Assembly: GCA_944472135.2 (NCBI GenBank)
Contig: CALYDD020000354.1
Span: 1 to 64,000, forward strand
Reading direction: 5' to 3'
Source of the DNA: Trichobilharzia regenti
Taxonomy: Eukaryota; Platyhelminthes; Trematoda; Strigeidida; Schistosomatidae
DNA: 64,000 nucleotides
The translations under genes were made by a program, and so were the position numbers. Every line of letters starts with the position of its first letter. Positions within the stretch are counted from its first letter, which is position 1. A model generated the notes under the pieces. That model was not told the origin of the DNA. It saw nothing but the letters and a program-made list of their open reading frames with translations, and did not search any database. Positions 9,100 to 46,278 of the stretch are shown in pieces.

Positions 9100-9955
9100 T
9101 TGACTGAAACATTCAGTTTAACCTTCGCACTAATACTTCAGCCGAGGAAATCCTAGTGGCTATTCTGCAAACACATCCGGCAGTAGTACTATGGAAGCTA
9201 CAGTGGCTCACATCTAGAAAGTCACCAGTTTGTGAAGATATCAAGCCATCTGTTCTGAAACAGTGCGCTTAAGCTCTGTGCACGTTTTTATGCGACTTGT
9301 TCCAGCACTCGATGGATTAGAGGAAACTTCCAAGGGAAAGGACAAGAGCCAACCTTTCTCCTATTTTCAAGGGTGGCAACAGGCTAATTATCACTAGTTA
9401 CAGACCAGTAGCACTGTTTTCAGTGGTATCGAAAGTACAGGAAAGTAGAATTGATGATCACACCAGGGAACACCCTCATGGGATTAATATACTCTATGAA
9501 GTACAACGTGGTTGCAGGAAAGGTAGACTCTGTGAAAAATACCTACCATCAGCTTGGGACGATTACACATCATGGTAAGATATGAATATTCTAATCCATG
9601 TGATTTTCCTACTGTTCGAGGAGTCACTAGACACAGTTCACCATGACCTCCTCCTACACAAAATAAGTAGGGTAGGTAAATGTGAGCCACTTCTGTCATG
9701 GTTGAAGTAATACATAGCTGAAAGGAAATTCTACACTAAAGTCATTGGTGTCTGGCCATCCTGGCACAGTTCGTCATCACGAGTATTGCGGGGCTCGATC
9801 CTAGGGCTTTTGATGTATTTGATCCTTATCAACTCTCTAAGCCACCTGAGTCTTCATTACGCCGAAGGCGTAAAGCTTTGTAGAGCAGTATAGTATGCGG
9901 AAGACTCAGACATGTAACAGGTTGACCTAAATCTTCTGGAAGACTAAGTGGCGGT
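9100..9955 (+). pseudogene. Reverse transcriptase remnant of the L2-like LINE
   Basis: In order, the translated frames give 'EDIKPSVLKQCA', 'SPIFKGGNRLIITSYRPVAL' (normally PIFKkG..YRPisL), 'EESLDTVHHDLLLHKISRVG' (normally FDrVpHdlLl.KL), 'PLLSWLK', 'SRVLRGSILGLLMYLILINS' (normally SGVPQGSvLGPLLFliyINDL) and 'LHYAEGVKLC' (normally YADDvKl). The catalytic Asp pair is read as Glu-Gly, so the enzyme is dead. Stops interrupt the frame several times. Confidence 0.75.
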
Positions 9956-11892: not shown

Positions 11893-12177
11893 TTCGCGCG
11901 CTTTTCGACTATTACGCTACATTTTGCTCATTAATAAAAACTCTTATTACTCTAAAATTTTATGCAAAGAGTTTGCGGAAATTATCACAATTATTAACCT
12001 TTCGAACACTGAATCCAAGAAATACAATCTTATTGACAGATAATACACATAACCCACTGTTTGGATTTGTGGAATTTTTAAACATAAACACATCTATAAT
12101 TGTATATATTGTTGGATTTATATGTTCAAGTTGCTCCAAGTCAGTGAGTTTATGGTTAAGATATCATTTTAGTTAAC
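11893..12177 (+). other. RTE leader with a shared open frame of unknown meaning
   Basis: A frame of about 90 codons from about 11,895 to the stop at 12,174-12,176 lies in the 5' leader. The minus-strand RTE has the same frame (about 35,350-35,073) ending at the same residues, with only a few amino-acid changes. It has no motif I recognise and lacks a shared start codon at the element boundary. It could be a small extra protein or chance openness in a leader of similar age. Confidence 0.4.
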
Positions 12178-12301
12178 TGTACTGAACTATATTGCATGTT
12201 GTCTTATTGTATAGTTGTCGTCGCTTTTTGCCCTTTTTTCTGTGAACTGTTTCCTTTGTTGATGTTGTTCTCATTGTTTGTCCGTTATTTTCTGATTTTG
12301 A

Positions 12302-12330
12302 GGGGAGCAACCCAAAAAGTTGCTTCTCTC
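12302..12330 (+). promoter_or_regulatory. Leader hairpin upstream of the RTE coding region
   Basis: The arms ggggagcaac and gttgcttctc pair over ten positions (two G-T pairs) around a ccaaaaa loop. The minus-strand RTE keeps the hairpin at about 34,921-34,950 with one mismatch. Its place about 90 nt before the start codon suggests a translation or RNA-packaging role, but this is inference. Confidence 0.45.
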
Positions 12331-12419
12331 TAAACTTTTACTTAATGCAATCATTCTTTTCTCAGGCGTGAGGCTAGCAACCCCACCCTGTAAACAAAAA
12401 TTGCTAAAGAAACTTCAGT

Positions 12420-15388
12420 ATGTTGAACCTCCTTGCACCAAAAGAAAAAGTCTGTGTAGGAACATGGAACGTCCGAGCTATGTACGAGACGGGAAAGCTG
12501 CCCAGATCGCCAACGAGATGAAAAGATACGGAATACAAGTGCTGGGAATATGTGAGAGCAGATGGAATGGGAGTGGACTCACCAAATTGTCAACAGGTGA
12601 ATCAGTGATCTACTCCGGTCACCCAGAAGATAACCACACGCACACCGAGGGCGTGGCTATCATGATGTCACCAACGGCAACGAAAGCCCTGATACAATGG
12701 GAGGCGATTTCGTCCAGGATAATGACCACTAGATTCAACTCCAAAGGAAGGAAAGTGTCAATAATCCAATGTTATGCACCCACAAATAACGCAGACCTTG
12801 AAAAGAAAGAAGAATTCTACAGACAACTACAGGCAGCAGTGGACAATACTCCAGCTGGCGACATGAAAATACTAATAGGAGACATGAACGCCAAACTGGG
12901 ACCAGACAACTCAGGAAGGGAACTCATCATGGGTAGAGAAGCTCTAGGAGAAATGAAGGAAAACTGAGAACTCTTCGCCGACTTCTGCGCCTTCAACGAA
13001 CTAGTGATTGTTGGCAGTGTAAACAAGCACAAAGATATCCACAAGGCTACATGGGTGTCACCAGATGGGCAAACCAAAAACCAAATCGACTTCATCTCAA
13101 TCTCAAGGAAGTGGAGGTACAGCCTAGTGAACACAAAAGCAAGAAGAGGAGTAGACGTTGGCTCAGACTACTATCTCGTACAAGGGACAATCCAAATCAA
13201 ATTAAAAGCTTTCAGGGAAACAGGAGCTGCAGATAGACCACAAGCCAAGTTCAACACTCAAAAGCTGAAGGACCAGGCTACAAAGGACATCTTCATTGCA
13301 AGCATAAAGGACAAAGCTGAGATACAAATCAACACCAGCGAAAAGGTCAACGTCGAAAAGCACTGGGACAACTTGAAAACGGTGTGGAGCCAAACCTGCA
13401 TAGAAATTCTAGGCAGAAAAAAGAGACAGGACAAACAGTGGCTCACTTTGGACACTTGGAAACTAATAGAAGAGAGAAGGACAGTGAAGCAAAAGATTAT
13501 CCAGTGCACTGACGAGCAACAAAAACAGGAGCTGAATGCAAGCCACAATACACTGAACAAAAGAGTGAAGAAAAGTGCCAGGGAAGACAAAAGAAAATAT
13601 TATGAAACCATGGCAAACGAAGCAGAACAAGCTGCAGGCAAAGGAGACCTCACCACACTCTACCAAACAACTAGGAACATTTCGGGCAAACGTTCGACAC
13701 AGATTAAGCCAATAAAGGACGACAATGGAAAGTCAATCACCAAAGAGGTGGTACAGAGAAAGCACTGGGTTGAACACTTCAAAAGACTTCTAAATCGTCC
13801 GCCACCTACAACACGCCCAACAATACCAACAACGGAAGCAGAACTACCAGTGAACACTGACCCCCCGACGAAATCAGAAGTCTTGAATGCAATCAAGATG
13901 CTTAAAGCTGGGAAAACACCGGGACCAGATGGAATCCCAGCAGAGGCTTTGAAAATAGACCCAGAGACAACAGCGGACTTGATGACGCCATAGCTGGAGA
14001 AGGTGTGGAAAGAGGGCAAAGTACCTGAGGATTGGAAGAACAGTTACTTATTCAAACTTCCAAAGAAAGGAGACTTAAGTCAATGTAAAAACTGGCGTGG
14101 AATTATGCTTCTGTCCATTCCAAGCAAGATACTAAGTCGCATCATCCTGGAGAGAATCAAACAAGCCCTAGATGAAAAACTTCGTCCGGAACAGGCTGGA
14201 TTCAGGAGAAACAAATCATGTATTGATCAAATCGCCACTCTACGGATCATCATTGAACAAAGCTTGGAATGGCAGTCACCTCTCTATCTCAACTTCATCG
14301 ACTTTGAAAAGGCCTTCGACAGCGTCGATCGAGAGGTCATTTGGAAACTACTTCGCTACTACGGGGTCCCATCGACAATTATACACCTCATCCAACAGTT
14401 ATACGACAATGCTACATGTCAAGTAATCCACAACGGGAAACTTACGGAAGCCTTCGAAGTGAGGACGGGAGTGAGGCAAGGCTGTCTATTATCGCCAATG
14501 ATCTTCCTGATTGCAATTGATTGGATAATGCGACAGACAACGGCAACCAACGAGGGAACAGGCATAAAATGGACTGACACAAAAGACTTGGAGGATCTGG
14601 ATTTCGCCGATGATATATGTCTGATTTCCCATAAACTGGAAGATATGCAAGTGAAAAGTAACAAGTTGGCAGAAGAAGCATCAAAGATAGGACTTCACGT
14701 GAACATAGATAAAACAGAGATAATGAAGATTCCTAGCCAACATCAACAACACCAACAGACCACAATAAGCATAAATGGGAAGAACCTGAAAGAAACAACC
14801 TCCTTCACCTACCTGGGAAGCATCGTCTCAACTACAGGTGGAACTGACGAGGACATCAAAGCCAGAATCGGAAAAGCAAGACAAGCTTTCATTACTCGCA
14901 AATCTGTGTGGAGGTCAACAGCAATCAGCATCAAAAATAAGATCCGGATTTTCAACTCCAATGTGAAGTCAGTGCTACTATACGGATCAGAGACTTGGCG
15001 AGTCATAAAGAGCATCTCAAACAAACTTCAAACCTTCATTAACAACTGTCTCCGCTCAATACTCAAGATCAGATGGCCAGAAAAGATCAGCAACAGGGAT
15101 CTCTGGGAGAGAACCAATCAGGAACCGATTGTGAAACAAATAGGCAGAAAGAAATGGAGATGGATTGGCCATACGCTGAGGAAACCATCAAGTGACATGA
15201 CTAGACAAGCCCTCGAGTGGAACCCGAAAGGGAGGCGGCGAGTTGGTCGTCCAAGGGTGACTTGGAGGAGGTCATGCGAGGAGGAGATGAAAGCATGTGG
15301 ACAGACCTGGAGCAGGGTGAAAAAGTTGTCAGAAAACCGAAGTCAATGGAGGTGCGCAGCTGAAGCCCTATGTTCCTCTAGGAACTAA
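12420..15388 (+). pseudogene. RTE endonuclease-reverse transcriptase, broken
   Basis: The start at 12,420 aligns with the start of the minus-strand copy. An AP-type endonuclease comes first ('CVGTWNVRAMYETGK', 'ICESRWNG', 'GDMNAKLG'), then a reverse transcriptase ('FIDFEKAFDSVDR', 'GVRQGCLLSPMIF', 'LDFADDICL') and the RTE-type C-terminus ('RKKWRWIGHTLRK', 'GRRRVGRPRVTWRR'). Breaks: a one-base deletion near 12,490, a TGA at 12,965-12,967 and a TAG at 13,991-13,993. The endonuclease motif SDH is SDY here, losing the catalytic His, while the minus-strand copy keeps SDH. From 14,003 to the end the frame is fully open. Confidence 0.92.
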
Positions 15389-15419
15389 AAGATACAATAA
15401 TAATAATACATATACGATA

Positions 15420-22745: not shown

Positions 22746-24911
22746 CAATAATAGTTCGCAAAATCCCTCTTCAACTATCTATCTGCAATATTCATGCGCA
22801 CTTTGAATGTTTCAATGAAATCTGTAATTGTTCACCTCTTTTCTACCAGGTTGTATTCACGCTTCATCTACTGTCTGTTCCTTATCATTTGTCTTTCTTC
22901 CCATTTCATCTCTAATTTTGATGCGTCTTTTTCACCTATGTGATGACAACGTTGATAGTGTGTTGTTCTAAGACTGTGATTGTGTTTGTTTCATTGAAGT
23001 TGGCTGTGATCTTGGAATATTTGTTGTACGTTTTATTTTTCGGGATTTGACTAGGCACGCAGACTACATAAAAAACAGACAAGTAGTATTCAGGAATTAC
23101 GCTCCACTTGATGCTTTTACTACAAGTCATGTTCGATTTCCATATGATAATCTGTATGTATTTCATTCAATTACACCAACGATTAGTCACTTGCTTTTCC
23201 TCATTCGATCAACAGACTGGTCCATATTCATCAGGATAGAGTCGGCTGTAGAACATACTGTAAAACTGAGTTACACTATCAAATGTAGTTTGCATGCCTT
23301 TCTACTGTGACCACTAATCAGCAGAAATGTTTTCAATCCGTTATTTTCACGTAAGAACGCACATCCTTTAGATTATTACAGACTTTTAGTAAATCGTCAT
23401 CACTGAAAGCCCAATAAATGCTTGAGATAACGTGTAATCTATGCATTCACTAACATCGGTTTGGAGTGCACATTCCATGGGCAAGATAACAGAGCTGTGA
23501 GGTAAGAAATAAATAGATCACATTGAGTGAATTAATCAAGTCTTATCATAATCTTGTTCTGTCTCGGATGTGCCACAATTAGTGGACCGGACAATCGCTC
23601 TCCTTAAGTATATCGAGCACAGTCTGTTAATGAATACATCCACTTTTGTGTTGTTTGTATTACTTTTTGTATTTTGAAAGCCAAAGTACTACTTGTACTG
23701 TTATCGTGTTTAACTCAGGGTAAATTTGTAATTGTGACGTTTCATTTCTTTTTATAACTTCATCAGCATATTATCACAACGATGGTGGGAAACGGCCCCC
23801 CACAGAAAACGGTTCACTATCGAACAGATCTGTCACACTGTCACTCAGTTTGTCACTTCAATCAAATGAACTCAATAAGAGTTGTATATTGATATTCAAA
23901 TATGATTACAACTAAAAAGAAGTTAACTGCAGTTGATGATACTTTCATTATTTTATATATTCACGCCTGCGTTTCGATTCACTCACAGCATATAATTTCC
24001 TAATTACCATAAGTATATGTGGTTGTGCAGCTTGATAGTTGCCTGTTCAAAAAGTGTCTTTTCGCTGAATCACTCACTTGGATTATGGAAATATCGAAGT
24101 GAAAGTTTCCAGATTAGAAGTTTTTCTACACAATGCAGATAATTTCTGTTGGTGAATATATTATCTCATCATTGTGCTTAAAATGTGTTATGACTAGAAA
24201 TATTGAGATTAGTGAATAGACACCAGACGTAACTGATACCAGCAGTTCTACCTACCACAATGCTATCTCAATGATACCGCTAAGATTAGTACCGCCAGTT
24301 ACTCGAATTTCCACTGTTGAGGCGTCGATATCAAGTTGCATGGAAGCCTATTCGGTGGCATCATCTTCAAATGAATAGAATTCCAATTCTTCCTTAGATT
24401 AATATTATCAATGGGGTAGCCAGTAAACAATATCTACACTCCGGATACAACAAAATTAATTTAACTGATCTCAGTAACACATAAAGCGGATGGAAATTTT
24501 CCTAACTGATGAAATAAATCTCTGAAGTATATACACCATCATGTCAAGTATGATTTTGTAAGCGTCGACAAGTATGAAAATTACTCAGAATGAGAACATC
24601 AAATTCATCTGATTAATCGGAAGAAGTCAAATATTGGAATGATGCAATTATATTTAAAAGAGAGACAATAAGCGTTATAATGAAAATGGGTTATTTCATT
24701 AAGTTTTCATGAAATCCATTGCACACCAAGAATGTGCAGAATACACGTTCACCATGCCAGCGTGGGTAGGATATTCGCATTCTCCTATAGTTTTCTACTC
24801 CAGCTTCTGTAAAGGAAATGAAAGAAGGTGAGCATTTTTGATTTCATACTAAAGCAAACGATATAAGTATAGAATGTGAGTGAGCATTGTGGTGAAGCAC
24901 AACTCCATTGT
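22745..24911. other. No recognised gene
   Basis: No frame with a known motif. The block at about 24,545-24,610 ('gagaacatcaaattcatctg') resembles 35,575-35,640 and 63,640-63,690, marking another dispersed repeat. Confidence 0.4.
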
Positions 24912-25124: not shown

Positions 25125-27119
25125 ATAAAGCAAATGAGGCTGAATGTTATGAGTATTGGAAGAGACACGAGAGAATCGACTAATTTTAACTACCGCACTC
25201 GTAATGACTGAGACTCAGTGACTGTGTGAGTGAGGATGTATCGGGTATGTCTGACATGGTTCAAGTAGACTTGACCGCAAATGGGGTTCACTTGAGAAGA
25301 AGACATCGGTTGGGTTTTGTTGAATATCTAGTCTGTGATACACTGAATGATTGTCTTCATCATACCAGGTATGATTTCATATTATATGATATGTCATGAA
25401 CAAATTGGTGATTCATCGAATCCTACTACCCTTGTCCTTCGTGTTCAAAGTAAAAATAATAATATTTTCGTGTGGACTGCATTCAAATTCTAGTTATACA
25501 TATTTATCTAAATAAATAGGTTGGTATTTTCCATCATGAGTAAATTTTGAATTATGATAAATGGTGATTCCTTATGAGATATTAAGTGTATCTTACGTTT
25601 CAACCTCTCGACGGCGGCTTCATAAATGGTCTTGAACACTTGAAAGTAAAAGATTAGTGTAAAGATGACATATTAGTTGAATGAAGACTAGTCTTTCTCA
25701 TCAGTGTGTAAATTCCTTCTCCGACAACTGATAGGATTTGACAATGTGCACAGTAATAAAATACGCATAAGCATATGCATAAGTTTCTTTGTCTACAAAC
25801 TGTTTGATGAGTGGCATATCATAATATATGTCCAAACCGAGTTGACTTTTAACGGTTTGAAAAATTTGGGCATTGGGTATATGATATTCATTATAAGAAA
25901 GGCTTTTGTATTTCCCAATGAATCGTTTTATTTTTCATTCATTGGGAAATAGAAAAACCTTTATAATAATGAAGGGCATATCACACTCAATCAGTCAACA
26001 CTTCATATAATGTGGCAACACTCATGTCTAGGTTGGTCACAGTCATACAGTAGAAACCGTCAATTATTCTAATATCTGCGTTGTAACGAGAATTTACAGT
26101 CTTTGCTGTATTGATTAGTCTTCCTGACATGTATGAGCCTACACGTGAACACATCGGACAGTTTCTCCTCAACTAACTTCCTCTTGCCACTGTCGGCTAA
26201 ATTTAATCTATTGCCGTGTGAACACTCGTGCTGACCTAGTTCCTTCTTTGCATTTCCATGTTGCTTAACAAATTAGTAGTCAATTGTGATTGTGTGAGTA
26301 AGATTAGCCTGTGTGAAACTAAACCGTCACCTGTCGATATTTTGACGATTTCTACCTGTAAAGTGATTCTGTTGGTGGATGTTTCAGACTAGTCTTGTTT
26401 TCTGTGTGATCTGTTGGCATTATTTAGTGAACAGACCAGAAACTGCCAAAAGTTGTGTACTAACTACGAACTGATGCACAACTCTGTGTAGACTTAGACA
26501 TTCTAAGATGAATGTATTACTGCTTTTGGTTTGAAATGCATAACCATTTTGAAATGAGAACAATGTCCACGTTATTAACAAGCGTTATGGGATTATTGCA
26601 ATTGCTGATTATGCGGAATACCAGATAATCATTTTTTCTTTATTTTGTGAATAAATATTGATGCATAAATCGATTGTGTAAAACTCATGAACAAAACAGA
26701 TTGCACTTACTGATGGCTTGACCATACTTCCTTTTGTTCTCATAAAAATCTCTTATTTTATGCTTCAAATTTGTTAGATCTGAAATTTGAAAGAGAATGA
26801 CTGCATTCTAAAACTGAATGTCACAGAATCAAATGGCGAACGGTGATCATACGGAATACTGTGAAATAATTGGTGGTTTGGAATAATGTGTTGTTGTTGA
26901 GATAGACGATTACCTCGTCCACGTTATCCCTCACTTAAACGTCGATTATTGCACGTCTTGGGAGACAGCGAGAACACTTTCGATAAACCCTTGCATGGAC
27001 TTATTGTTTCTCGTCCTGTATTGAAATTGGATAATTTTGACTCCAACAGTATTGGTAGACTGGCAAATTCGTCCTAAATGTCAATGAACGTGAATGATTG
27101 AATTACATTAACTGCAGTC
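25125..27119. other. Downstream flank of the micro-exon gene, otherwise unassigned
   Basis: On the minus strand this is 3' of the stop codon of the micro-exon gene. An aataaa signal on that strand lies at 26,644-26,639 and would give a 3' untranslated region of about 480 nt, but no processing data are available. No other gene is seen. Confidence 0.35.
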
Positions 27120-30100
27120 TCAACTACAACAGACAGTTTCACAGACTTCAGATTTCACGTCATTACACTTCTCAGATGTAATGTGTGATAGCAACCCTGG
27201 AAAGAAAGCCATCTGATATTAAACATGATACTGTATCCTGCACATTGATAGATCTACTTCAAATTCACTGACAACGCTACCAGATCGAGAGCTGGGTGAA
27301 TCCGGTGAAACAAACTCTTATGAGAATATATTTGACTTTCGAGAATTGACCTGATGAAATTCAGAAATGTTCTCTCAATATCTTTCAAAGCAGTAATATT
27401 TCGTAATTTAATTCAAGAGTGACTGGTCATCACTAGATTACCGTGACGGTTTCCTGTTGGTCTATAATCTTCACAGTCGAATGCTTGTTCTGCTCGCAAC
27501 TTAGCTGATGAAGAAACAGAAGAGAGAGACAGAATAGCACATTGAAACAATGAGAAGCAAAACTTATCTTTATCAACAAATATTCAGGCAAATACACGCC
27601 TATGAAATGGCAAAACATCATACAAATAATTGTGGACTTAGTTATCTTGAATAAAAAATCTCCACTCCCAACTCTCTGGTTTTTACCTGGAATAATCAGG
27701 AGAGTGCTAGAGTGAAATAGACACCGGCATATTAGATAGGAATGTTTATTGGATAAGTGTGAAGTAGGAATGCAAACCTAAACTGTTTACCTGCGTAAGC
27801 ATCAGCCTCTCCCTTGATACATTCTTGAAAGAAATACTCCTCTCTGTGAGGACCTGTATGTAAATGAATTTCAAACAATGTGTCAACTCATGTTTATTAT
27901 CTTTGGAAATAGGTGCTAAATAAATGTATGAATTTCACTCATGAATGGTGAGTGATTCAGAGGTTCGGATATAGTCTGGAACTGGAATATGGTCTACGGG
28001 AATTGTCTTCGATGACTCTGCTCTCAAATTGTGTAGTAACACACTGATAAGTGTTCTCCATAAAATGACCAGTTAAATATATGAGCAAATTTTCAATGAA
28101 CCTCATTAGTGTTGAAGGAATGGCTATCAGTGGGTAGTAATAATTCTGATAAATGACTGAAGTAATAATCAAGGAAGTATTTTGGATAGAGGGATCAGTG
28201 AGAGTAAAGAAAGACGCTACGATGGATGATAAATGGGGAGTGAGCACTATGCAAGTCGAATATGAAATGACTACATAATCCCCAAGGACAACTTTTACGC
28301 TTGAATGCAACATTCTTTCATCCTGCATTGAGTTCTGGAAATAACATCAGACATATATATGCCAATCAGTTCCACTTATGACACATTTCGGTACAAAATT
28401 TATAAGATCATTCTATGTGGTTTCTCCTGTCAAATAGATTCGAGGAATACATTTTAACTCTGATATCATTCTCAATGCTTGAACTATACACTGGGTGCAG
28501 ACAAAGTGATAACAACCACACATGAAGTCGGTTGACATAAAATAAAGTTACCATATTGTTCAGGGTTCTTTTCAAGTTTGGATAGTGCAGCTGGAAAATA
28601 CAGAAAATGATTGCTGATATTAAGAGATCATCTAAAAGAATAGTTCCTTATGCATCACTGTGTTGTATGTGGATTTACATCACACCTGATTAATTCCACG
28701 GTATGCTCAAGCATACTTTTTCAATGTCTTCTACTGATTATCACAATGCAATTCAATGGACCAGCCTGTAACACTCAGTTCTCGTGAAATTTATTATTCC
28801 TAATTACATCTAAAGACGGAAATGATTCTCTTCAATCGTCCACTTTCCATTAGGTTGTTTTCCAGACATCTTCAAGATGAATATCTTCATCGATTCAATA
28901 AAGTGTTCATTTCATCGGAATGTCAAGCTGACGTCATTTGCCTGATGATCGAATTCAGAGTCTTAACCCTTCTGATTGATGCTTGACTTTAGAGTTTTCA
29001 ACACTGGTCTCCAAAGCGAATGATGACATAATGTGTGCGTTAAACTGAGTTATAGATTGAACCAAGTTGATAACATCTCGAAGAAAGCAGTGAAATTCCA
29101 TGAACCTGTGTCCCTTTCAACCACCTCAATGAATCACATTCCTCTAGACACACTAAATCAGTGAGTAATCTCATTAGATAAGATAATTGTTTTAAGTCTG
29201 AAAGTGCGCTTTCAAAGTTGTAGGATCTCACTGAATTGTTCTAGCTGCATCATCGTCGACTTTGAATATTCTACACAATAATAACACTTAAACACCTCGG
29301 ATAACCATGTAAATAGAAGCAGTATATAAAGGTGAAATAAATCTTGGAACACACAGTTGAATAATTCGTTTCCGGAGTAGCTTTCATAAAATCTTCTGCA
29401 ACAGCTAACAACTGAAAGAGATTGTTAGTCAGAGAAATTCATAAAATCATCACTCACAGTTCGCAAAGGTACGGTTGCCGGTTTCTGTAACTGCATTTAT
29501 AATCTTGTCTAAAGAAAGAGAGAGAGAGAGAGAAGTGAGTAGAGTCACTGCATGACACAGGACACCGGTTAGAACTTCAGCATTTACTATGATGAAAACA
29601 GTGAGTTGATTGGCTATTATTGGAGCATGCCTACACCGTAGTATATTCATTTTACAACAAAGTGATTGTCATGAACATGAACGTGTAACATTTCTTATTG
29701 GAGCGAATGAGAACGGATGAGAAGTGAATGAGGAGTCAGGTAGTTGCATGCTAACATCCTCACTTGAATAAGTGTCATGTCAGCTGGCTCCACGTAATTA
29801 CAATGCCTGAAGTCGAAGCATTTCCACTGAATAGCCTATGGGGAAAATCTTCTGAAAGTATAACAAATGTTTCATGCGAACATCATATGCAGAAATCGTG
29901 AAGACCTAGGCAAATTATCAATCACCTGAAATTATTGCTTACTTTCCAGTTTTGTAATTTCTTCTTCATTGCTGCGAATCGAACTAGCTAATTTGGGTAA
30001 TTCAGCTATGGAAAAGAGAGCGAGAATTATTTCGAATAATTTACAATTGGAGGGATTTTACAAGAGACATGATGTAACGAAACATCAAAAGCTTCTTTAG

Positions 30101-30713
30101 GTTAATGCAAGAAGAATTATATATCCATCTGAAATCAATCGTCTTACCTACAGTCCCCTTAAGCAATTCTTCTATGTCTCCTAACTTAGACGATTCACCT
30201 TTAAAATTGACAAAATGGAGAGAACAAGCATTGTTACACAAACCGAAACTTTATTAACACGTGAATATTATGTTAGAATTTGCTAACTTCTAAAGCCTAA
30301 AGAGCCATGTGTGCATTGAGTTTATATGATTGGAAATCTGAAAAACTGCTAATTAACAGAACACTAGTTGGAGGATTTGAATGTTTGCTGCATTCACTTA
30401 CAATTTCGGAGATGGAAAGATCATCGAAATACTCTTCATCACTGAAGGAGAGTGATATGTAAAGGTGAGATACTGAAAGTGGAATGGGTTTGTTGGAGAC
30501 ACAAGCAGTCTCCTCTCAGAAATATGATCACGGAATAGTCTTACAAAACACTGATAGGATGAAACAGTAGCATTCATCATAATGCAAAAAAGGTTTATTT
30601 GAAAATAAAGGGTCACAAATGCACAGTCATGGTTATGTATGCGTACTCTCGTTCATGGTGGCAAACACCAGCAGTGTTATCACAGATATGAAACTGTACA
30701 TCAAGTTGAACAT
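27120..30713 (-). CDS. Micro-exon gene (MEG) encoding a small secreted Cys-rich protein
   Basis: Nine exons on the minus strand: 30,713-30,647 (67 nt, ATG), 30,472-30,398 (75), 30,198-30,148 (51), 30,005-29,943 (63), 29,508-29,458 (51), 28,590-28,552 (39), 27,823-27,791 (33), 27,504-27,442 (63) and 27,196-27,120 (77, with TGA). Each is flanked by AG and GT, mostly with long pyrimidine tracts and gtaag-like donors. All internal exons are multiples of three, and every junction is phase 1. The joined frame is open for 172 codons. Exon 1 encodes a signal peptide (core 'YSFISVITLLVFA'). Exons 2-5 are acidic and Leu/Lys/Glu-rich, perhaps helical. Exons 7-9 supply six Cys, four in the last ('SEKCNDVKSEVCETVCCS'). 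Symmetric tiny exons behind a signal peptide define schistosome MEGs, secreted by gland or tegument cells. Exons 1-2 are the weakest: donor gtacgc, and in exon 2 donor gtgaat is needed for phase although gtaagt lies 4 nt earlier. Family not assigned. Confidence 0.8.
28299..28334 (-). other. Possible unused or alternative micro-exon
   Basis: A 36-nt stretch lies between a strong acceptor (ttatttccag) and donor (gtaaaa) within the micro-exon gene. In the phase used by the neighbouring exons it contains a TGA, although it is open in the other two phases. It may be a decayed exon, an alternative exon that ends translation, or chance. Confidence 0.35.
29154..29411 (-). other. Possible optional micro-exons
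   Basis: Three splice-like units lie here: 29,411-29,355 (57 nt, phase-compatible, weak donor gtgtgt), 29,270-29,232 (39 nt, donor gtgaga) and one starting at 29,197 after cactttcag. The 39-nt unit gives a stop if joined after the 51-nt exon but is open if joined after the 63-nt exon at 30,005-29,943, so it could be a mutually exclusive alternative. None is needed for the core model. Confidence 0.35.
29515..29533. repeat. (ga)n tract forming the polypyrimidine tract of an intron
   Basis: Nine or so ag units. On the minus strand they read as a ct tract directly before the 51-nt exon at 29,508-29,458. Confidence 0.7.
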
Positions 30714-30753
30714 ATTCTCTGCTTCCTTTGTTTTCTCTGATTCCACTTCACAG

Positions 30754-30761
30754 CTTTTATA
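30754..30761 (-). promoter_or_regulatory. TATA box of the micro-exon gene
   Basis: tataaaag on the minus strand, ending about 40 nt before the start codon at 30,713. A start of transcription 25-30 nt downstream would leave a leader of roughly 10-15 nt. Confidence 0.6.
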
Positions 30762-31750: not shown

Positions 31751-31862
31751 TTTTGACACCTTAATGCTACATGCTGAATATTCCAACCTGTTTTTGTAGC
31801 ATTTATAATACTCTCGCAATATTTCAAGTAACGCGTATAATTTATTATTATTATTGTATCCT

Positions 31863-34849
31863 TTAGTTCCTAGAGGAACATAGGGCTTCAGCTGCGCACC
31901 TCCATTGACTTCGGTTTTCTGACAACTTTTTCACCCTGCTCCAGGTCTGTCCACATGCTTTCATCTCCTCCTCGCATGACCTCCTCCAAGTCACCCTTGG
32001 ACGACCAACTCGCCGCCTCCCTTTCGGGTTCCACTCGAGGGCTTGTCTAGTGATGTCACTTGATGGTTTCCTCAGCGTATGGCCAATCCATCTCCATTTC
32101 TTTCTGCCTATTTGTTTCACAATCGGTTCCTGATTGGTTCGCTCCCAGAGATCCCTGTTGCTGATCTTTTCTGGCCATCTGATCTTGAGTATTGAGCGGA
32201 GACAGTTGTTAATGAAGGTTTGAAGTTTGTTTGAGATGCTCTTTATGACTCGCCAAGTCTCTGATCCGTATAGTAGCACTGACTTCACATTGGAGTTGAA
32301 AATCCGGATCTTATTTTTGATGCTGAGTGCTGTTGACCTCCACACAGATTTGAGAGTAATGAAAGCTTGTCTTGCTTTTCCGATTCTGGCTTTGATGTCC
32401 TCGTCAGTTCCGCCTGTAGTTGAGACGATGCTTCCCAGGTAGGTGAAGGAGGTTGTTTCTTTCAGGTTCTTCCCATTTATGCTTATTGTGGTCTGTTGGT
32501 GTTGTTGATGTTGGCTAGGAATCTTCATTATCTCTGTTTTATCTATGTTCACGTGAAGTCCTATCTTTGATGCTTCTTCTGCCAACTTGTTACTTTTCAC
32601 TTGCATATCTTCCAGTTTATGGGAAATCAGACATATATCATCGGCGAAATCCAGATCCTCCAAGTCTTTTGTGTCAGTCCATTTTATGCCTGTTCCCTCG
32701 TTGGTTGCCGTTGTCTGTCGCATTATCCAATCAATTGCAATCAGGAAGATCATTGGCGATAGTAGACAGCCTTGCCTCACTCCCGTCCTCACTTCGAAGG
32801 CTTCCGTAAGTTTCCCGTTGTGGATTACTTGGCATGCAGCATTGTCGTATAACTGTTGGATGAGGTGTATAATTGTCGATGGGACCCCGTAGTAGCGAAG
32901 TAGTTTCCAAATGACCTCTCGATCGACGCTGTCGAAGGCCTTTTCAAAGTCGATGAAGTTGAGATAGAGAGGTGACTGCCATTCCAAGCTTTGTTCAATG
33001 ATGATCCGTAGAGTGGCGATTTGATCAATACATGATTTGTTTCTCCTGAATCCAGCCTGTTCCGGACGAAGTTTTTCATCTAGGGCTTGTTTGATTCTCT
33101 CCAGGATGATGCGACTTAGTATCTTGCTTGGAATGGACAGAAGCATAATTCCACGCCAGTTTTTACATTGACTTAAGTCTCCTTTCTTTGGAAGTTTGAA
33201 TAAGTAACTGTTCTTCCAATCCTCGGGTACTTTGCCCTCTTTCCACACCTTCTCCAGCAGTGGTGTCATCAAGTCCGCTGTTGTCTCTGGGTCTATTTTC
33301 AAAGCCTCTGCTGGGATTCCATCTGGTCCCGGTGTTTTCCCAGCTTTAAGCATCTTGATTGCATTCAGGACTTCTGATTTCGTCGGGGGGTCAGTGTTCA
33401 CTGGTAGTTCTGCTTCCGTTGTTGGTATTGCTGGACGTGTTGTAGGTGGCGGACGATTTAGAAGTCTTTTGAAGTGTTCAACCCAGTGCTTTCTCTGTTC
33501 CACCTCTTTGGTGATTGACTTTCCATTGTCGTCCTTTATTGGCTTAATCTGTGTCGAACGTTTGCCCGAAAGGTTCCTAGTTGTTTGGTAGAGTGTGGCG
33601 AGGTCTCCTTTGCCTGCAGCTTGTTCTGCTTCGTTTGCCATGGTTTCATAATATTTTCTTTTGTCTTCCCTGGCACTTTTCTTCACTCTTTTGTTCAGTG
33701 TATTGTAGCTTGCATTCAGCTCCTGTTTTTGTTGCTCGTCGTGCACTGGATAATCTTTTGCTTCACTGTCCTTCTCTCTTCTATTAGTTTCCAAGTGTCC
33801 GTAGTGAGCCACTGTTTGTCCTGTCTCTTTTTTCTGCCTAGAATTTCTATGCAGGTTTGGCTCCACACCGTTTTCAAGTTGTTCCAGTGCTTTTCAACGC
33901 CGACCTCTTCGCTAGTGTTGATTTGTGTCTCGGCTTTGTCCTTTATGCTTGCAATGAAGATGTCCTTTGTAGCCTGGTCCTTCAGCTTTTGAGTGTTGAA
34001 CTTGGCTTGTGGTCTATCTGCAGCTCCTGATTCCCTGAAAGCTTTTAATTTGATTTGGATTGTCCCTTGTACGAGATAGTGGTCTGAGCCAACGTCTGCT
34101 CCTCTTCTTGCTTTTGTGTCCAGTAGGCTGCGCCTCCACTTCCTTGAGATTGAGATGAAGTCGATTTGGTTTTTGGTTTGCCCGTCTGGTGACACCCATG
34201 TAGCCTTGTGGATATCTTTGTGCTTGTATACACTGCCACCAATCACCAGTTCGTTGAAGGCGCAGAAGTCGGCGAAGAGTTCTCCGTTTTCATTCATTTC
34301 TCCTAGAGCTTCTCTACCCATGATGAGTTCCCTTCCCGTATTGTCTGGTCCCAGTTTGGCGTTCATGTCTCCCATTAGTATTTTCATGTCGCCAGCTGGA
34401 GTATTGTCCATTGTTGCCTGTAGTTGTCTGTAGAATTCTTCTTTCTTCTCGAGGTCTGCGTTGTTTGTGGGTGCATAACATTGTATGATTGACACTTTCC
34501 TTCCTTTGGAGTTGAACCTGGCGGTCATTATCCTGGACGAAATCGCCTCCCATTGTATCAGGGCTTTCGTTGCCGTTGGTGACATCATGATAGCCACGCC
34601 CTCGGTGTGCGTGTGGTTGTCTTCTGGGTGACCGGAGTAGATCACTGACTCACCTGTTGACAATTTGGTGAGTCCACTCCCATTCCATCTGCTCTCACAT
34701 ATTCCCAGCACTTGTATTCCGTATCTTTTCATCTCGTTGGCGATCTGGGCAGCTTTCCCAGTCTCGTACATAGTTCGGACGTTCCATGTTCCTACACAGA
34801 CTTTTTCTTTTGGTGCAAAGAGGTTCATTATGCTGAAGTTCTGTAGCAA
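31863..34849 (-). pseudogene. RTE endonuclease-reverse transcriptase, one frameshift
   Basis: Start at 34,849 ('MLQNFSIMNLFAPKEK'). The N-terminal AP endonuclease keeps its motifs: 'GTWNVRTMYETGK', 'CESRWNG', 'YAPTNNAD', 'GDMNAKLG' and 'SDHYLVQG'. The reverse transcriptase follows with 'FIDFEKAFDSVDR', 'GVRQGCLLSPMIF' and the FADD active site, then the RTE C-terminal region with 'KKWRWIGHTLRK' and 'RRRVGRPRVTWRR'. The only lesion I see is a one-base loss near 33,740, just after 'TVKQKIIQC', found by comparing with the plus-strand copy. That splits the roughly 995-residue protein into about 370 and 620 residues. The break falls between endonuclease and polymerase. Confidence 0.92.
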
Positions 34850-35072
34850 CTTTGTTTACAGGGTGGGGTTGCTAGCCTCACGCCTGAGAAAAGAATGATT
34901 ACATTAAGTTAACGTTTAGAGAGAAGCGACTTTTTGGGTTGCTCCCCTCAAAATCAGAAAATAACGGACAAACAATGAGAACAACACCAACAAAGGAAAC
35001 AGTTCACAGAAAAAAGGGCAAAAAGCGACGACAACTATACAATAAGACAACATGCAATATAGTTCAGTATTG

Positions 35073-35352
35073 TTAACTAAAATGATATCTTAACCATAAA
35101 CTCACTGACTTGGAGCAACTTGAACATATAAATCCAACAATATATACAATTATAGATGTGTTTATGTTTAAAAATTCCACAAATCCAAACAATGGGTTTT
35201 GTGTATTATCTGTCAATAAGATTGTATTTTTTGGATTCAGTGTTCGAAAGGTTAATAATTGTGATAATTTCCGCAAACTCTTTGCATAAATTTTTACACT
35301 AATAAAAGTTTTTATTAATGAGCAAAATGTAGCGTAATAGTCGAAAAGCGCG
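35073..35352 (-). other. RTE leader open frame, second copy
   Basis: Matches the leader frame of the plus-strand RTE (11,893-12,177) in length, frame and end. A few replacements are visible (for example KTLITLKF against KTFISVKI, NPRNT against NPKNT). It reads through the target duplication into the flank upstream. Confidence 0.4.
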
Positions 35353-35361
35353 CGCGTATAA

Positions 35362-40745: not shown

Positions 40746-40908
40746 TTTGAATAATTAAATCTTATTCAAATATGACCTCTAATCGGATGATTTATTCTCA
40801 TAAGTCTTTAATATCCTTTAAACCTACTGATCTGCATTTCTATAAAAAAGACTGAAAAAGCATCATGCCGGCTGGCAGAGAGCATTAAAAAATACCCCTA
40901 TTCAATTC

Positions 40909-41391
40909 ATGACTGTTCCAGCAATTATGAGTACCAATTGTCGCTCCCTGCCGGCTAAAATTAACTGTCTTCAATCGCTGGTGTCTTCCATTATATATCA
41001 TAATACTGGGATCATATCACTTCAAGAAACATGGCTACATGATCTATATGATGACAATCTAGTGTATCTAAATGATTTCAAATTATTCAGACAAGATCGG
41101 TGTAGTTCCAGGAAGAAACGCGGTGGCGGTGTCGCCATCTTCATCGATTCACAATGGTGTACATCTAATGATGTATGTTTGAAATTGTCTAGTGACAATA
41201 TTGACTGCCTCACCGTTAACTGTCGACCTAAACATTTGTCAAAATATAACTACATATACATCTCGAAAATGTATATTGCTCCTGGATGTAATTCCACAGA
41301 ATTGTCTTTATTAACGGATGATTTTACCTCACTTGTTGCCTGCTCCTTCGGAAACTCCTTGTCTATAGTTGCTGGAGATTTCGAATTCTAG
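40909..41391 (+). pseudogene. CR1-like endonuclease, copy A
   Basis: AP-type endonuclease of a LINE. 'MSTNCRSLPAKI' is followed by 'GIISLQETWLHD' (catalytic Glu in QETW), then 'GGGVAIFID' and 'CLTVNCRP'. The C-terminal 'SIVAGDF' holds the catalytic Asp of the GDFN motif. The frame then stops, and the SDH part ('LNSDHCIIKIL') appears in another frame near 41,520-41,560. Confidence 0.8.
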
Positions 41392-41876
41392 TGACCACAG
41401 ATTCCTTATTTCACTTGGACATGAAAACACTGTCAACTTCCCGACTAAACTGGATAATACTCTTACTCGTATGTTTACAAATGACACAGGAATATTTAAA
41501 GCTCAAAAAAGAGACCCGCTACTTAATTCTGATCACTGTATCATAAAAATATTGTCCAAAGTATATGGAAAGCAACATTCACGAAAAGGTCTTCTCATAC
41601 CTCGGAAAGAAAACACAACACAGATGTTATTCTCATAACAACACACTGAATCTAAGGTCCATGTTGAAAGACACAAACTGTGACTTATATACTGAGCATG
41701 CTCTTGATAATACAATTACTAGCATAACACACTGTCTTAAATTTCTGTTTTGATGTTTGTTGTCCAAAAGAGACAATATTCCTAAAATTCGACCGCTTCT
41801 CCTCTTCTCAACTCAGATAGCTTCGCCGTGAAAAGGAGCGGATGCGTTATGATTCCTCACTGTAGTAGTGTAAATA

Positions 41877-43127
41877 ATGGCTGCTTCTCATGCTTTAATA
41901 CAAATAATGCCCTTAAATGCCTTCAATCTATGGAACTTACTTAGTCCCTTTGCCCTCCCTGATGGTGTTCCTGCTGTTATCCTTAAGAAGTGTGCTGACA
42001 TTTTATGTTCTCCATTAACCATCATTTTCAACGAATCTTTTTCCAAAAGTAATATACCTGAATCATGGAAAAATATCAAGATTGTTCCATTGCCTAAATC
42101 AACAAGTGGACCTAGTGTTAAGTTTAGACCCATTGCTATTACGTCACCTTTTTTGAAATTTATGGAAAGACTTACTTTGCTGAATCTTGAACCCTCTTTA
42201 AAGCCTTTCAGTGACCTCAACCAGTTTGCTTATAAACATAGTGGGTGTAACTTAGATCCCGCTGTTGTCCTATATCATAATATATTCTCTAGGTTAGATA
42301 TAGTAGCAAATTGCGTTCGATGTTTATTCCTTAAATACACATCTGCATTTGACTGTGTACGTAATTCTCTCTTGCTAAGTAGGCTTGCTGCCACACAGGC
42401 TGATGTAGCCACTTTTGTTAAATATGCTGATGACCTCTCTGTTGTTACTATAGCTGTCAACTCTCACACAGATTATTCCAAATTAAATACTATTCTGTGA
42501 GAAATTAGTCAGTGGTCCTCTTCAAACGGTCTGAAGCTGAATCCGTTTAAATGTCAGGTGGTCAATTTCACTGTCAGACGAAAACGCGACGCACATCAAC
42601 TAGCTAGCTCACACGACCTCACTATCATTGACCACATAGAGGTTGATATTACATTACTGAGTATTTCCTCCGATCTTTCCTGGTCCTCCCACATCTTGCT
42701 AGTTACCAGAAAGATGCTTCGCTTAACGTTCTATGTTAGGAAATGAAGGCAGTCTGGTATAAATCAGTCTTTGCCTTCTCATTTTGTCAATTCCTGTATT
42801 CTACCCATCCCTCTTTACTGCTCCCCACGAATCTTTCCTGGACTACTTAAGAAAGACTTTGGTTTGCTGAGAAGGGCACTGAAAGCCGTTAGTGGGGCAA
42901 GTGGGATATCGTCAAACCAACTGGTTAATACTTTTGTGGATAGACATATAATGTCATGTAAGAAACTGGCGAATATTATATTGTCAGACCTCCCACATCC
43001 TCTCTATATGCAACTTTCTCCTTGCGTTTCATCTGATAGATCCAGAAGCAGCTATAGGAGGCCATATGCTGTGACTACTAAAGTACTAAATCTCCACAAT
43101 GCCATATCTGGAACAGATCTCATGTGA
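41877..43127 (+). pseudogene. CR1-like reverse transcriptase, copy A, with deletion
   Basis: Keeps 'DGVPAVILKKCADIL', 'FRPIAITSPFLKFMERL' and 'FVKYADDLSVV' with the YADD active site. About 62 codons present in copy B (about 45,325-45,510, including the SGVPQGAVLSPF loop) are missing in frame between 'LAATQ' and 'ADVATF'. Stops at 42,498 and 42,744 break the thumb region, which ends near 43,127. It cannot make an active enzyme. Confidence 0.85.
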
Positions 43128-43519: not shown

Positions 43520-44350
43520 AGGATTTTATAAAACGTTTTAAACCCAAAAACTTTCATATTTGCAATAAACTCAAGAAAAAGCACCATGGAGGTTGGCAGC
43601 GTGCCTTAAAATCTACACCCATACATCACGCCACTGTTCCAGTTATCATTAGTACCAACCGCCGGTCCCTGCCTAATAAAATTCTGGATTTTCAGTCCCT
43701 GTTGTCTTCTAGTGCCTACCACAATACTGGTATTGTCACTCTACAAGAAACCTGGCTCCATGACTCATACGATGACAGTATTGTGTCTCCAAAGAAGTTT
43801 AATGTTTTCCGACAAGACCGTGTTTGTTCCAAGAAAAAATGTGGTGGAGGTGTTGCGACATTTATTCACTCAAAATAGTCCATTTCTAACAAAGTTTCAA
43901 ATTCTCGAATGACTACATTGATTGCATCACTGTGAGATGTCATCCGAAACACCTGTCAAAAAACAAATTCATTTATATTTCTAATGTTTATGTCTCTCCT
44001 GGCTGTACCATATTGGATTTATCTATGTTCGCCGATGAATTCACCGCTTTTGCTGCAGCTTGTTTCGAGAACTCTTTATCAATAGTAAAAGGTGATTTAA
44101 TTCATGCGATCACCCCTTCCTTATATCACTTGGTCATGACAATATTGTTAACTTTGCCACTCGTCTTGGTAAACACTGGATCTAGTATTTATCAATGATA
44201 TTGGTATATATGAAGCTCGCAAACGTGCTCCTTTACTTAACTCTGACCACTGCATCATACGTGTACTGCCTAAAATATATTCCAAATCACACAAAGGTGT
44301 CCTCTCTCACCTCTACAGTAAAGTTCAACGGAGATGCTACTCAAAAGACA
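43520..44350 (+). pseudogene. CR1-like endonuclease, copy B, broken
   Basis: 'STNRRSLPNKI', 'GIVTLQETWLHDS' and 'GGGVATFIHSK' are readable up to the stop at 43,876-43,878. The rest continues in other frames with 'AACFENSLSIVKGD' and later 'LLNSDHCIIRVLP', the SDH motif, near 44,240-44,270. At least two frameshifts are needed to connect them. Confidence 0.8.
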
Positions 44351-44370
44351 ACCTAGACAAGCTCAGATGC

Positions 44371-46278
44371 ATGTTGAAAGACACTAACTGGGACTTATTT
44401 ACAGAACAAACATTAGATGAAACAATCACAAACACTACCGATTATCTTAAATTCTGTTTCGAAATATGTTGTCCTAAAGAAACATTATTCATTCGATTTG
44501 ATCGCTTATCTTCGCCATATCTCAAAAAGCTACGTAGAAATAAAGAACTGTTGTTCAAAACTAATGATAAGCCTGGTGTAAAAAAGTTAAACATTCTGAT
44601 AAAACTGGAAATAAAAAGACTAAATGTTTTATATAATCAAAGATTTTTGTCATGTAAAACCCCTTCTAATTTATGGAAACTTTTCAAAGAAATTACTAAC
44701 GGTAAGCGATGTATTTCTGTTCCATCTCTTAATGTTGACACTCTTAATAAATCTTTCATACGCTCTTCTGTTGATACCCTTCCAAATGATACAAATCATA
44801 TTGACAATAACTTTAGTGGTTTTAATACCCTTGATGTGCTTAAATGTCTCCGGTCTCTTAAGCCTTCTCAAAGCCTTGGTCCTGACGGCATACCTGCCAT
44901 TGTCCTCAGGAATTGTGCTGATATTTTGTGTTATCCTCTTACTAACATTTTTAATGCTTCTTTTTCCGGTAACGTTCTACCTTTTGCATGGAAAAACATT
45001 AAAATTATCCCTATACCAAAACCATCTTCTGGTTCTGATATTAAATTTCGGCCTATTGCAATTACTTCCCCCTTTTTAAAATTGATGGAAAAATTACTTT
45101 TACTTCGTCTTGAACCCGCTTTGAAACCTTTTAATGATCCTAAACAATTTGCATACAAACATGGTAGAAGTACCTTGGATGCTGCGGTTGTCTTATATCA
45201 CAATGTTGTCTCTTGTTTAGACAAAGGTGCTAAATATGTTCGTAGTGCTTTCTTAGACTACACATCTGCTTTTGACTCTGTACCTAGGGGCCTTTTGTTA
45301 AATAAGCTATCGTTGACACAAACAGGATCCTGGGCTAAGAGTTGGTTGCATTCCTATTTTTCTGATAGAATGCAGTATACTGTATATAACGGCAAATCTT
45401 CTTCTACCTCGCTTACAAAATCCGGTGTTCCACAAGGTGCTGTCCTCTCTCCTTTTCTTTTTTCTTTCTTCCTACATGACCTGCCTCATTCAAACGAAAC
45501 TAACTTTGTCAAATATGCAGATGATCTGACTGTATCACTGCCTATCACTTCCGAGTCTGACAGCTCCAAACTTAATAGCTTTCTGTTGGACATCAACAAC
45601 TGGTCCAAGTCAAATGGTCTTATATTAAATCCTTCCAAATGTCAGGCAGTTGACTTTACTTTCAAGCATCGACGTGACTTACTTGAACTAGTTAACTCTC
45701 ATGATCCCTGTAGCATAGATGGCACGGAAATTGAAACCAAATCAAGCATTAAATACCTTGGATTAGTTCTTTCCTCTGACCTTTCATGGTCATCCCATAT
45801 CTTATCTATCTCTAAGAAAATGTTTCGTCTTACCTTCTACATTAAAAAGTTAAGACAATCAGGTATCAACCAACCTTTAGTTTTGCAATTTTTAAACTCC
45901 TGTATTTTACCTATTGTACTCTATTGCTCTCCATTAATCTTTCCTGGGCTTCTCAAAAAAGATTATATCATATTACGAAGAGTATTAAATGCTGTGAGTA
46001 GAGCTTGTGGTCTGCCACTGCATGAGCTCGCTAATACTATAGTCGAGAGGCATATAAATTCCTGTACGAAATGGGCAAAGGCTATAATGTCAGACCCTCT
46101 GCACCCCCTTTATTCACACCTGTCCCCTTGTATCTCATCAGGTAGGACGAGAAGTCAATATAAAAAGATATATGCTCGTACCACTAAGTATAGAAATTCT
46201 ACAATACCCTATTTAGCGCGTACTTTATGTGACGAAGACTCTGTTAGACGTGAAACACTTAAGTTACTATGTAATTAG
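44371..46278 (+). CDS. CR1-like reverse transcriptase, copy B (open, 635 codons)
   Basis: An unbroken frame with all the usual LINE polymerase motifs: 'GPDGIPAIVLRNCADIL', 'FRPIAITSPFLKLMEKLL', 'FLDYTSAFDSVPRGLL', 'SGVPQGAVLSPFLFSFFLHD', 'FVKYADDLTV' (YADD catalytic Asp pair), 'NPSKCQAV' and 'IKYLGLVLSSDLSW', then a thumb and C-terminal region to the TAG at 46,276-46,278. The frame is open for at least 50 codons before the first Met too, since it begins as the tail of the endonuclease. With the endonuclease broken the element is not autonomous, but this is the best-preserved CR1-like polymerase here. Confidence 0.88.
   Translation: MLKDTNWDLFTEQTLDETITNTTDYLKFCFEICCPKETLFIRFDRLSSPYLKKLRRNKELLFKTNDKPGVKKLNILIKLEIKRLNVLYNQRFLSCKTPSNLWKLFKEITNGKRCISVPSLNVDTLNKSFIRSSVDTLPNDTNHIDNNFSGFNTLDVLKCLRSLKPSQSLGPDGIPAIVLRNCADILCYPLTNIFNASFSGNVLPFAWKNIKIIPIPKPSSGSDIKFRPIAITSPFLKLMEKLLLLRLEPALKPFNDPKQFAYKHGRSTLDAAVVLYHNVVSCLDKGAKYVRSAFLDYTSAFDSVPRGLLLNKLSLTQTGSWAKSWLHSYFSDRMQYTVYNGKSSSTSLTKSGVPQGAVLSPFLFSFFLHDLPHSNETNFVKYADDLTVSLPITSESDSSKLNSFLLDINNWSKSNGLILNPSKCQAVDFTFKHRRDLLELVNSHDPCSIDGTEIETKSSIKYLGLVLSSDLSWSSHILSISKKMFRLTFYIKKLRQSGINQPLVLQFLNSCILPIVLYCSPLIFPGLLKKDYIILRRVLNAVSRACGLPLHELANTIVERHINSCTKWAKAIMSDPLHPLYSHLSPCISSGRTRSQYKKIYARTTKYRNSTIPYLARTLCDEDSVRRETLKLLCN

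Follow-up and report, generated by a model that had tools for sequence, protein, structure and literature searches.

Micro-exon genes (MEGs) of Schistosoma, numbered MEG-1 to MEG-32, are described as having a signal-peptide-like first exon and exon lengths divisible by three (PMC10526429, PMC4671649, PMC4350168). In the strict sense their central exons are shorter than 36 bp, with 26 out of 33 being symmetric in one set (PMC4671649), and a wider description covers short exons (3-81 bp) separated by longer introns (PMC10526429). The MEG proteins studied are reported to be intrinsically disordered, with few motifs common to the group (PMC10526429). Schistosoma MEGs are also described as multigene copies with transposable-element enrichment, species-specific expansion, and a mature part that evolves faster than the signal peptide, with a raised ratio of nonsynonymous to synonymous divergence (dN/dS) (PMC4350168). 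In Trichobilharzia, 10 MEG transcripts were reported from T. szidati and 4 from a second species, some of them not close to S. mansoni MEGs (PMC6362228); they were found by BLASTp against GenBank MEG references and may or may not include the family described below. Counterparts of MEG-4 and MEG-8/9 (PMC5825161) and highly transcribed larval orphans (PMC4749378) are described in T. regenti. Here, we describe a gene on the minus strand (30713-24691, TATA box at 30761) of a 64,000-nt window, i.e., positions 1-64000 of a T. regenti contig of 76,843 bp (C338). From sequence comparison, we consider it likely that this gene is functional and belongs to a multigene family known to date from Trichobilharzia alone, with probably secreted products, a MEG-like exon design, and divergence biased toward the exons.

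The exon structure was fixed from A0AA85KEF9 (P0001), a T. regenti protein in UniProt/UniRef that spans exons 3 to 11, together with its relatives. This protein corresponds to residues 41-226 of the product, with 186 residues exact over nine exons. The model has eleven coding exons, introns of 46-1072 nt, and a product of 226 amino acids. The features of the gene are all on the minus strand, and the support given for each exon is the number of paralogous loci that retain the AG|GT signals, the frame, and openness, counted among the loci with both ends placed. The TATA box (TATAAAAG, 30754-30761) has TATAAA at the aligned place in all 16 other loci aligned there (among L009-L028), and also in an identical copy (L025). 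Exon 1 (30647-30713) provides the ATG, a hydrophobic N-terminus, and 67 coding nt ending in phase 1 (all features in 12 of 16 loci). It is followed by exon 2 (51 nt, 30148-30198, 18 of 18), exon 3 (63 nt, 29943-30005, 15 of 19), exon 4 (51 nt, 29458-29508, 16 of 17), exon 5 (57 nt, 29355-29411, 17 of 18), exon 6 (39 nt, 28552-28590, 16 of 17), exon 7 (63 nt, 27791-27853, 16 of 16), exon 8 (63 nt, 27442-27504, 18 of 18), exon 9 (69 nt, 26711-26779, 20 of 21), and exon 10 (42 nt, 25597-25638, 17 of 19). The terminal exon 11 (24691-24806) contributes 116 coding nt to a TAA and encodes the C-terminus of A0AA85KEF9; its acceptor is kept in 21 of 21 loci. The internal exons make up 498 of the 681 coding nt, and all nine are symmetric and in phase 1.

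None of the nine internal exons (39, 42, 51, 51, 57, 63, 63, 63, and 69 nt) is below 36 nt, although all of them fall within the wider range of 3-81 bp; we call the gene MEG-like because its exon design is of the MEG type while its exons are too long for the strict definition. The original prediction of a schistosome MEG thus holds for a schistosomatid gene with symmetric exons and not for a MEG in the strict sense, and the species is a bird schistosome rather than a member of Schistosoma. Of the seven internal exons proposed at that time, those of 51, 63, 51, and 39 nt and the final one of 63 nt correspond to exons 2, 3, 4, 6, and 8. The proposed 33-nt exon had the wrong acceptor and is the second half of exon 7, as indicated by A0AA85KEF9, which also reveals that exons 5, 9, and 10 and the true terminal exon (exon 11) had been overlooked. 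A 75-nt exon (30398-30472) and a Cys-rich last exon (27118-27196) are unsupported and most likely intron, and the gene runs ca. 2.4 kb further than the interval to which it had been assigned (27120-30761). The 172-codon frame was recovered when exon 7 was taken as 33 nt long, but it is not the supported model, in which the six cysteines (residues 81, 82, 121, 141, 212, and 217) are not restricted to the last three exons.

The claim that so many such units would be rare by chance was borne out. The observed density of open, splice-flanked units in phase 1 was attained in 0, 0, 1, and 1 of 200 dinucleotide shuffles at four threshold settings, and none of 57 other window segments attained it at any of them; each control was credited with whichever of its three phases scored highest. 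On the strand of the gene, the remaining phases scored 8 and 7 versus 10, and 10 and 8 versus 13, at the looser settings, while at the stricter ones phase 1 scored 6 versus 3 and 1, and 4 versus 2 and 1. The density is therefore clearly phase specific at the stricter settings only, since the other phases are also rich at the looser ones.

The paralogue search covered a genome of 954 Mb in 548 contigs, in which the window queries located at least 26 and at least 28 places, the window included. We took 27 stretches and examined 25 of them, after dropping L025 (identical in sequence) and L028 (without the gene). Several are near-identical copies on separate contigs and some contain only part of the gene, so that the number of independent loci is lower than 25. 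Across these loci, the nine internal exons nearly always retain AG|GT, frame, and openness, and for exons 2 to 10 their length changes are divisible by three in 18/18, 16/19, 16/17, 17/18, 17/17, 16/16, 18/18, 21/21, and 17/19 placed loci, respectively. Exon 6 is 36 nt long in the copies of contig C377. In 14 of the 16 other copies (L009-L028), the terminal exon reaches its first stop after 5 codons; the exceptions are L014 (11 codons) and L015 (1 codon). In the window the stop comes after 37, i.e., 32 codons beyond the usual stop, and the window copy therefore has a C-terminal extension.

Some length variants were seen among the copies. Exon 9 has 96 instead of 69 nt (+27, in frame) in L014-L016 on contig C2, exon 3 maps as 62 rather than 63 nt in L009 (a C500 copy), and several other copies have length changes that are not divisible by three. 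The public model P0003 (A0AA85JCE8) appears to read the exon 3 of L009 out of frame and then into the intron. A stretch of C2 (109.16-109.17 Mb) is nearly the same as the window sequence (introns 99.8%, exons 100%). When C338, C377, and C500 are compared with C2, family copies recur near-identically on the small contigs and C2, or inside one small contig, and are possibly uncollapsed haplotypes or recent duplications.

All 12 protein homologues come from T. regenti or T. szidati (other searches gave 3 and 7), the T. szidati clusters being listed with contigs of five distinct lengths. No Schistosoma homologue was found among the protein database matches, in searches run without a positive control. 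Seven of eight aligned relatives share the hydrophobic stretch of exon 1 at their start, P0012 beginning 4 residues later; only P0011 is without it. Identity among the relatives is 11/18 to 22/22 in the first exon and 26% to 65% in the mature part; the pair P0002 (A0AA85JD56, annotated "Secreted protein") and P0005, for instance, shares 20/22 residues in the first exon versus 43/166 in the mature part. Three cysteines are kept in every one of the nine aligned proteins. A hydrophobic first exon lies below a TATA box, as proposed originally; both are conserved, and the exon probably encodes a signal peptide, judging by inspection. Upstream of the ATG, 35 of 42 codons agree with the N-terminal extension of P0007 and 33 with that of P0005; these extensions therefore appear to be a translation of promoter sequence that takes in the TATA box. 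The public models P0005 (A0AA85JAJ7) and P0007 (A0AA85JB94) appear to start ca. 42 codons too early. The T. szidati annotations P0004 and P0006 differ by a single 18-residue block that matches exon 4 and is missing from P0006, a difference that would fit an in-frame exon skip; it is the one annotated case in line with the exon skipping that had been suggested.

Between copies, the mature exons of this gene tend to diverge more than its introns. Against L010, a C500 copy, the window is 90.0% identical in introns (4729 aligned positions) and 79.3% in mature exons (498 positions; p 3e-11). The lowest values are those of exon 6 (54%, the greatest exon divergence from the C500 copies), exon 10 (67%), and exon 7 (70%), in contrast with exon 5 (96%), exon 8 (94%), and the first exon (92.5%). 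In averaged 10-nt bins, identity between the window and C500 is 82-97% in the flanks and 73-82% inside the exons, with a step at the splice sites; single 60-nt flanks range from 72% to 98%. Exon 7 is the weakest case, because its upstream flank (43/60) diverges as much as the exon. None of 4873 noncoding 39-nt windows is as divergent as exon 6, and windows as low as exons 7, 9, and 10 amount to 1.0%, 2.0%, and 0.9%, respectively; for exons 2, 3, and 4 the figures are 12.5%, 16.4%, and 3.7%, and the divergence of exons 1, 5, 8, and 11 is not unusual. Of 105 copy pairs, 104 had enough alignment, and in 100 of these the mature exons have a lower identity than the introns; the pairs share sequences and hence are not independent. 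The median identity over the 104 pairs is 68.1% in the mature part versus 83.6% in the first exon. The closest pairs (L019/L020 and L021/L022) have no exon excess. Between the window and 16 loci, nonsynonymous (dN) and synonymous (dS) divergence both exceed intron divergence (K) in 16 of 16 comparisons. For the window and L010, dN is 0.246, dS 0.228, and K 0.106.

Several points weigh against this picture of a functional gene with fast exons. The intron identities exclude the parts that could not be aligned, which favours introns. Over the 16 loci dN/dS is 0.67-1.58, and for the window and L010 it is 1.08 (95% bootstrap interval, 0.68-1.79). Among six chosen pairs that were bootstrapped (NG86 for dN and dS), dN is clearly above intron divergence in two, window/L010 (dN/K 2.32, 1.71-3.06) and L011/L012 (1.83, 1.21-2.68); L014/L015 is borderline (1.53, 1.00-2.38), and L019/L020, L017/L020, and L015/L016 have no significant excess. 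The support consists of sequence comparison with annotated proteins as homologues, the signal-peptide call comes from hydrophobicity, and the fold model discussed below was built on just 5 to 9 sequences. Comparison of the copies and proteins shows the eleven exons and 226 residues, the conserved promoter and first exon, the invariant cysteines, and a tendency of mature exons to diverge more than introns between copies.

It might be argued that this is a true schistosome MEG as originally drawn, with the 75-nt and Cys-rich last exons being parts of an alternative isoform, given that both units have an open frame and splice sites at their ends, in the window as well as in two C500 copies. These two copies are the only loci with all the features, out of 9 placed for the 75-nt exon and 15 placed for the Cys-rich exon, the acceptor AG being kept in 5/9 and 2/15 and the open frame in 2/9 and 5/15, respectively. 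Neither unit is found in the 12 homologues, save for one 4-residue match to the 75-nt exon (E 0.10), and in P0002 the exon-1 sequence joins the exon-2 sequence directly, which therefore leaves no room for that exon. Against C500, moreover, both are at least as conserved as introns (91% and 96%), unlike the mature exons with their average of 79%, and we regard this version as highly improbable. A decaying or nonexpressed copy, to which the terminal exon extended beyond the usual stop and the nontriplet length changes of several other copies could point, also seems improbable, considering that the window copy has all eleven exons intact, a conserved promoter with its TATA box, and conserved splice sites.

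As to how the exons came to differ, the chances are close to even that ordinary positive selection on point substitutions, without any exchange of exons, explains the divergence. The 2.3-fold excess of dN over intron divergence between the window and C500 (95% bootstrap interval, 1.7-3.1) and the sparing of the first exon point in this direction, as do the mature parts of Schistosoma MEGs, for which raised dN/dS is reported (PMC4350168). However, positive selection is not proven by dN/dS values such as those given above, and dS is raised as well, 2.15-fold for window/L010 (1.26-3.21) and 2.25-fold for L014/L015 (1.08-4.01), which selection on amino acids does not predict and for which, taken alone, it is therefore an incomplete account; the dS excess is not clear in the other four pairs (dS/K 1.37, 0.57-2.56, for L011/L012), and part of it may be multiple hits within a codon, which NG86 shares between the two classes. 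More tentatively, whole short exons may be replaced or hypermutated between copies one exon at a time, splice sites and introns staying alike. This possibility, which we hold to be on the unlikely side, is based on introns 90% identical between the window and C500 next to silent and replacement exon differences at about twice the intron level. The restriction of the divergence to exons recalls ASSET (accelerated segment switch in exons to alter targeting) in the three-finger toxins of snake venoms, in which the signal exon is likewise conserved, introns are >85% similar, and large differences are confined to exon segments (PMC2711939; PMC2474615), although protein, phylum, and exon number are unrelated and the mechanism is unproven in both systems. 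Conversely, introns could have been homogenised by gene conversion, with selection removing the conversions that reach into exons, so that exons merely look fast. Conversion probably occurs in the family, since exon 2 of L019 (the counterpart of 30148-30198) and its near flanks are identical to those of L017, while elsewhere L019 is closest to L020 (82% identical in that exon). We nevertheless consider homogenisation rather doubtful as the explanation, because the drop between the window and C500 is mostly confined to exons and would require many short tracts, an objection tempered by the divergent upstream flank of exon 7.

The AlphaFold models built for P0002 from 5 and from 9 sequences agree with each other (predicted local distance difference test scores of 82.5 and 82.3, predicted template modelling score of 0.74) and predict main helices at residues 3-64, 75-109, 113/114-137, and 150-193. 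For this predicted fold we claim no known relative. Were the helices to alternate in direction, one end of the bundle would contain exons 6 and 10 and the start of exon 7. Under our preferred reading, that of a functional and probably secreted MEG-like family, the first exon would act as a signal peptide and the protein would be secreted by a gland or surface stage and take the form of a long alpha-helical bundle. The segments of this protein that vary, chiefly those of exons 6 and 10, would be remodelled between copies, and the parasite may thereby confront host molecules or immunity with a single scaffold in many versions. Diversity would come mainly from gene copies with differing exons, with a possible contribution from exons skipped in frame, as their shared phase would allow.

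The surroundings of the gene contain repeated elements. Two inverted copies (11895-15416 on the plus strand and 31834-35354 on the minus strand), 97.6% identical over 3.5 kb, look like a non-LTR (long terminal repeat) retrotransposon; the latter lies ca. 1.1 kb from the gene on its upstream side and gives Pfam matches to reverse transcriptase and endonuclease. More matches of these types lie in reading frames on the plus strand at 44173-46275, 40846-41388, and 41874-42497, the last two below the Pfam cut-offs. A fragment of the 3' end of the family (last intron, terminal exon, and downstream sequence) is located at 42-325 on the plus strand, in the orientation opposite to the gene. Just left of the window, in the C2 stretch L029, there is more of this fragment at 9213-9824 (plus strand) and a second one at 7154-5999 (minus strand) with exon 9 and the terminal exon; no upstream family exons were seen in L029.

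With transposable elements nearby, many copies, and a mature part that diverges faster than the first exon with its probable signal peptide, the family resembles the Schistosoma MEGs, from which its longer exons and a predicted helical, folded product, as opposed to disordered proteins, set it apart. By description rather than by sequence, it can also be likened to the bicycle genes of aphids, insect genes that have an unusually large number of small exons and encode putative secreted effectors that evolve fast (PMC9168663). The design of short symmetric exons would thus extend to what looks like a large, genus-specific family in bird schistosomes, parasites that cause cercarial dermatitis in people. 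If segments are indeed exchanged between copies, short symmetric exons would be as useful for remodelling the genome as for alternative splicing. The exon-biased divergence of this family makes it possible to ask, in a concrete case, whether exons of this type contribute variation through splicing, through their remodelling between copies, or through both.

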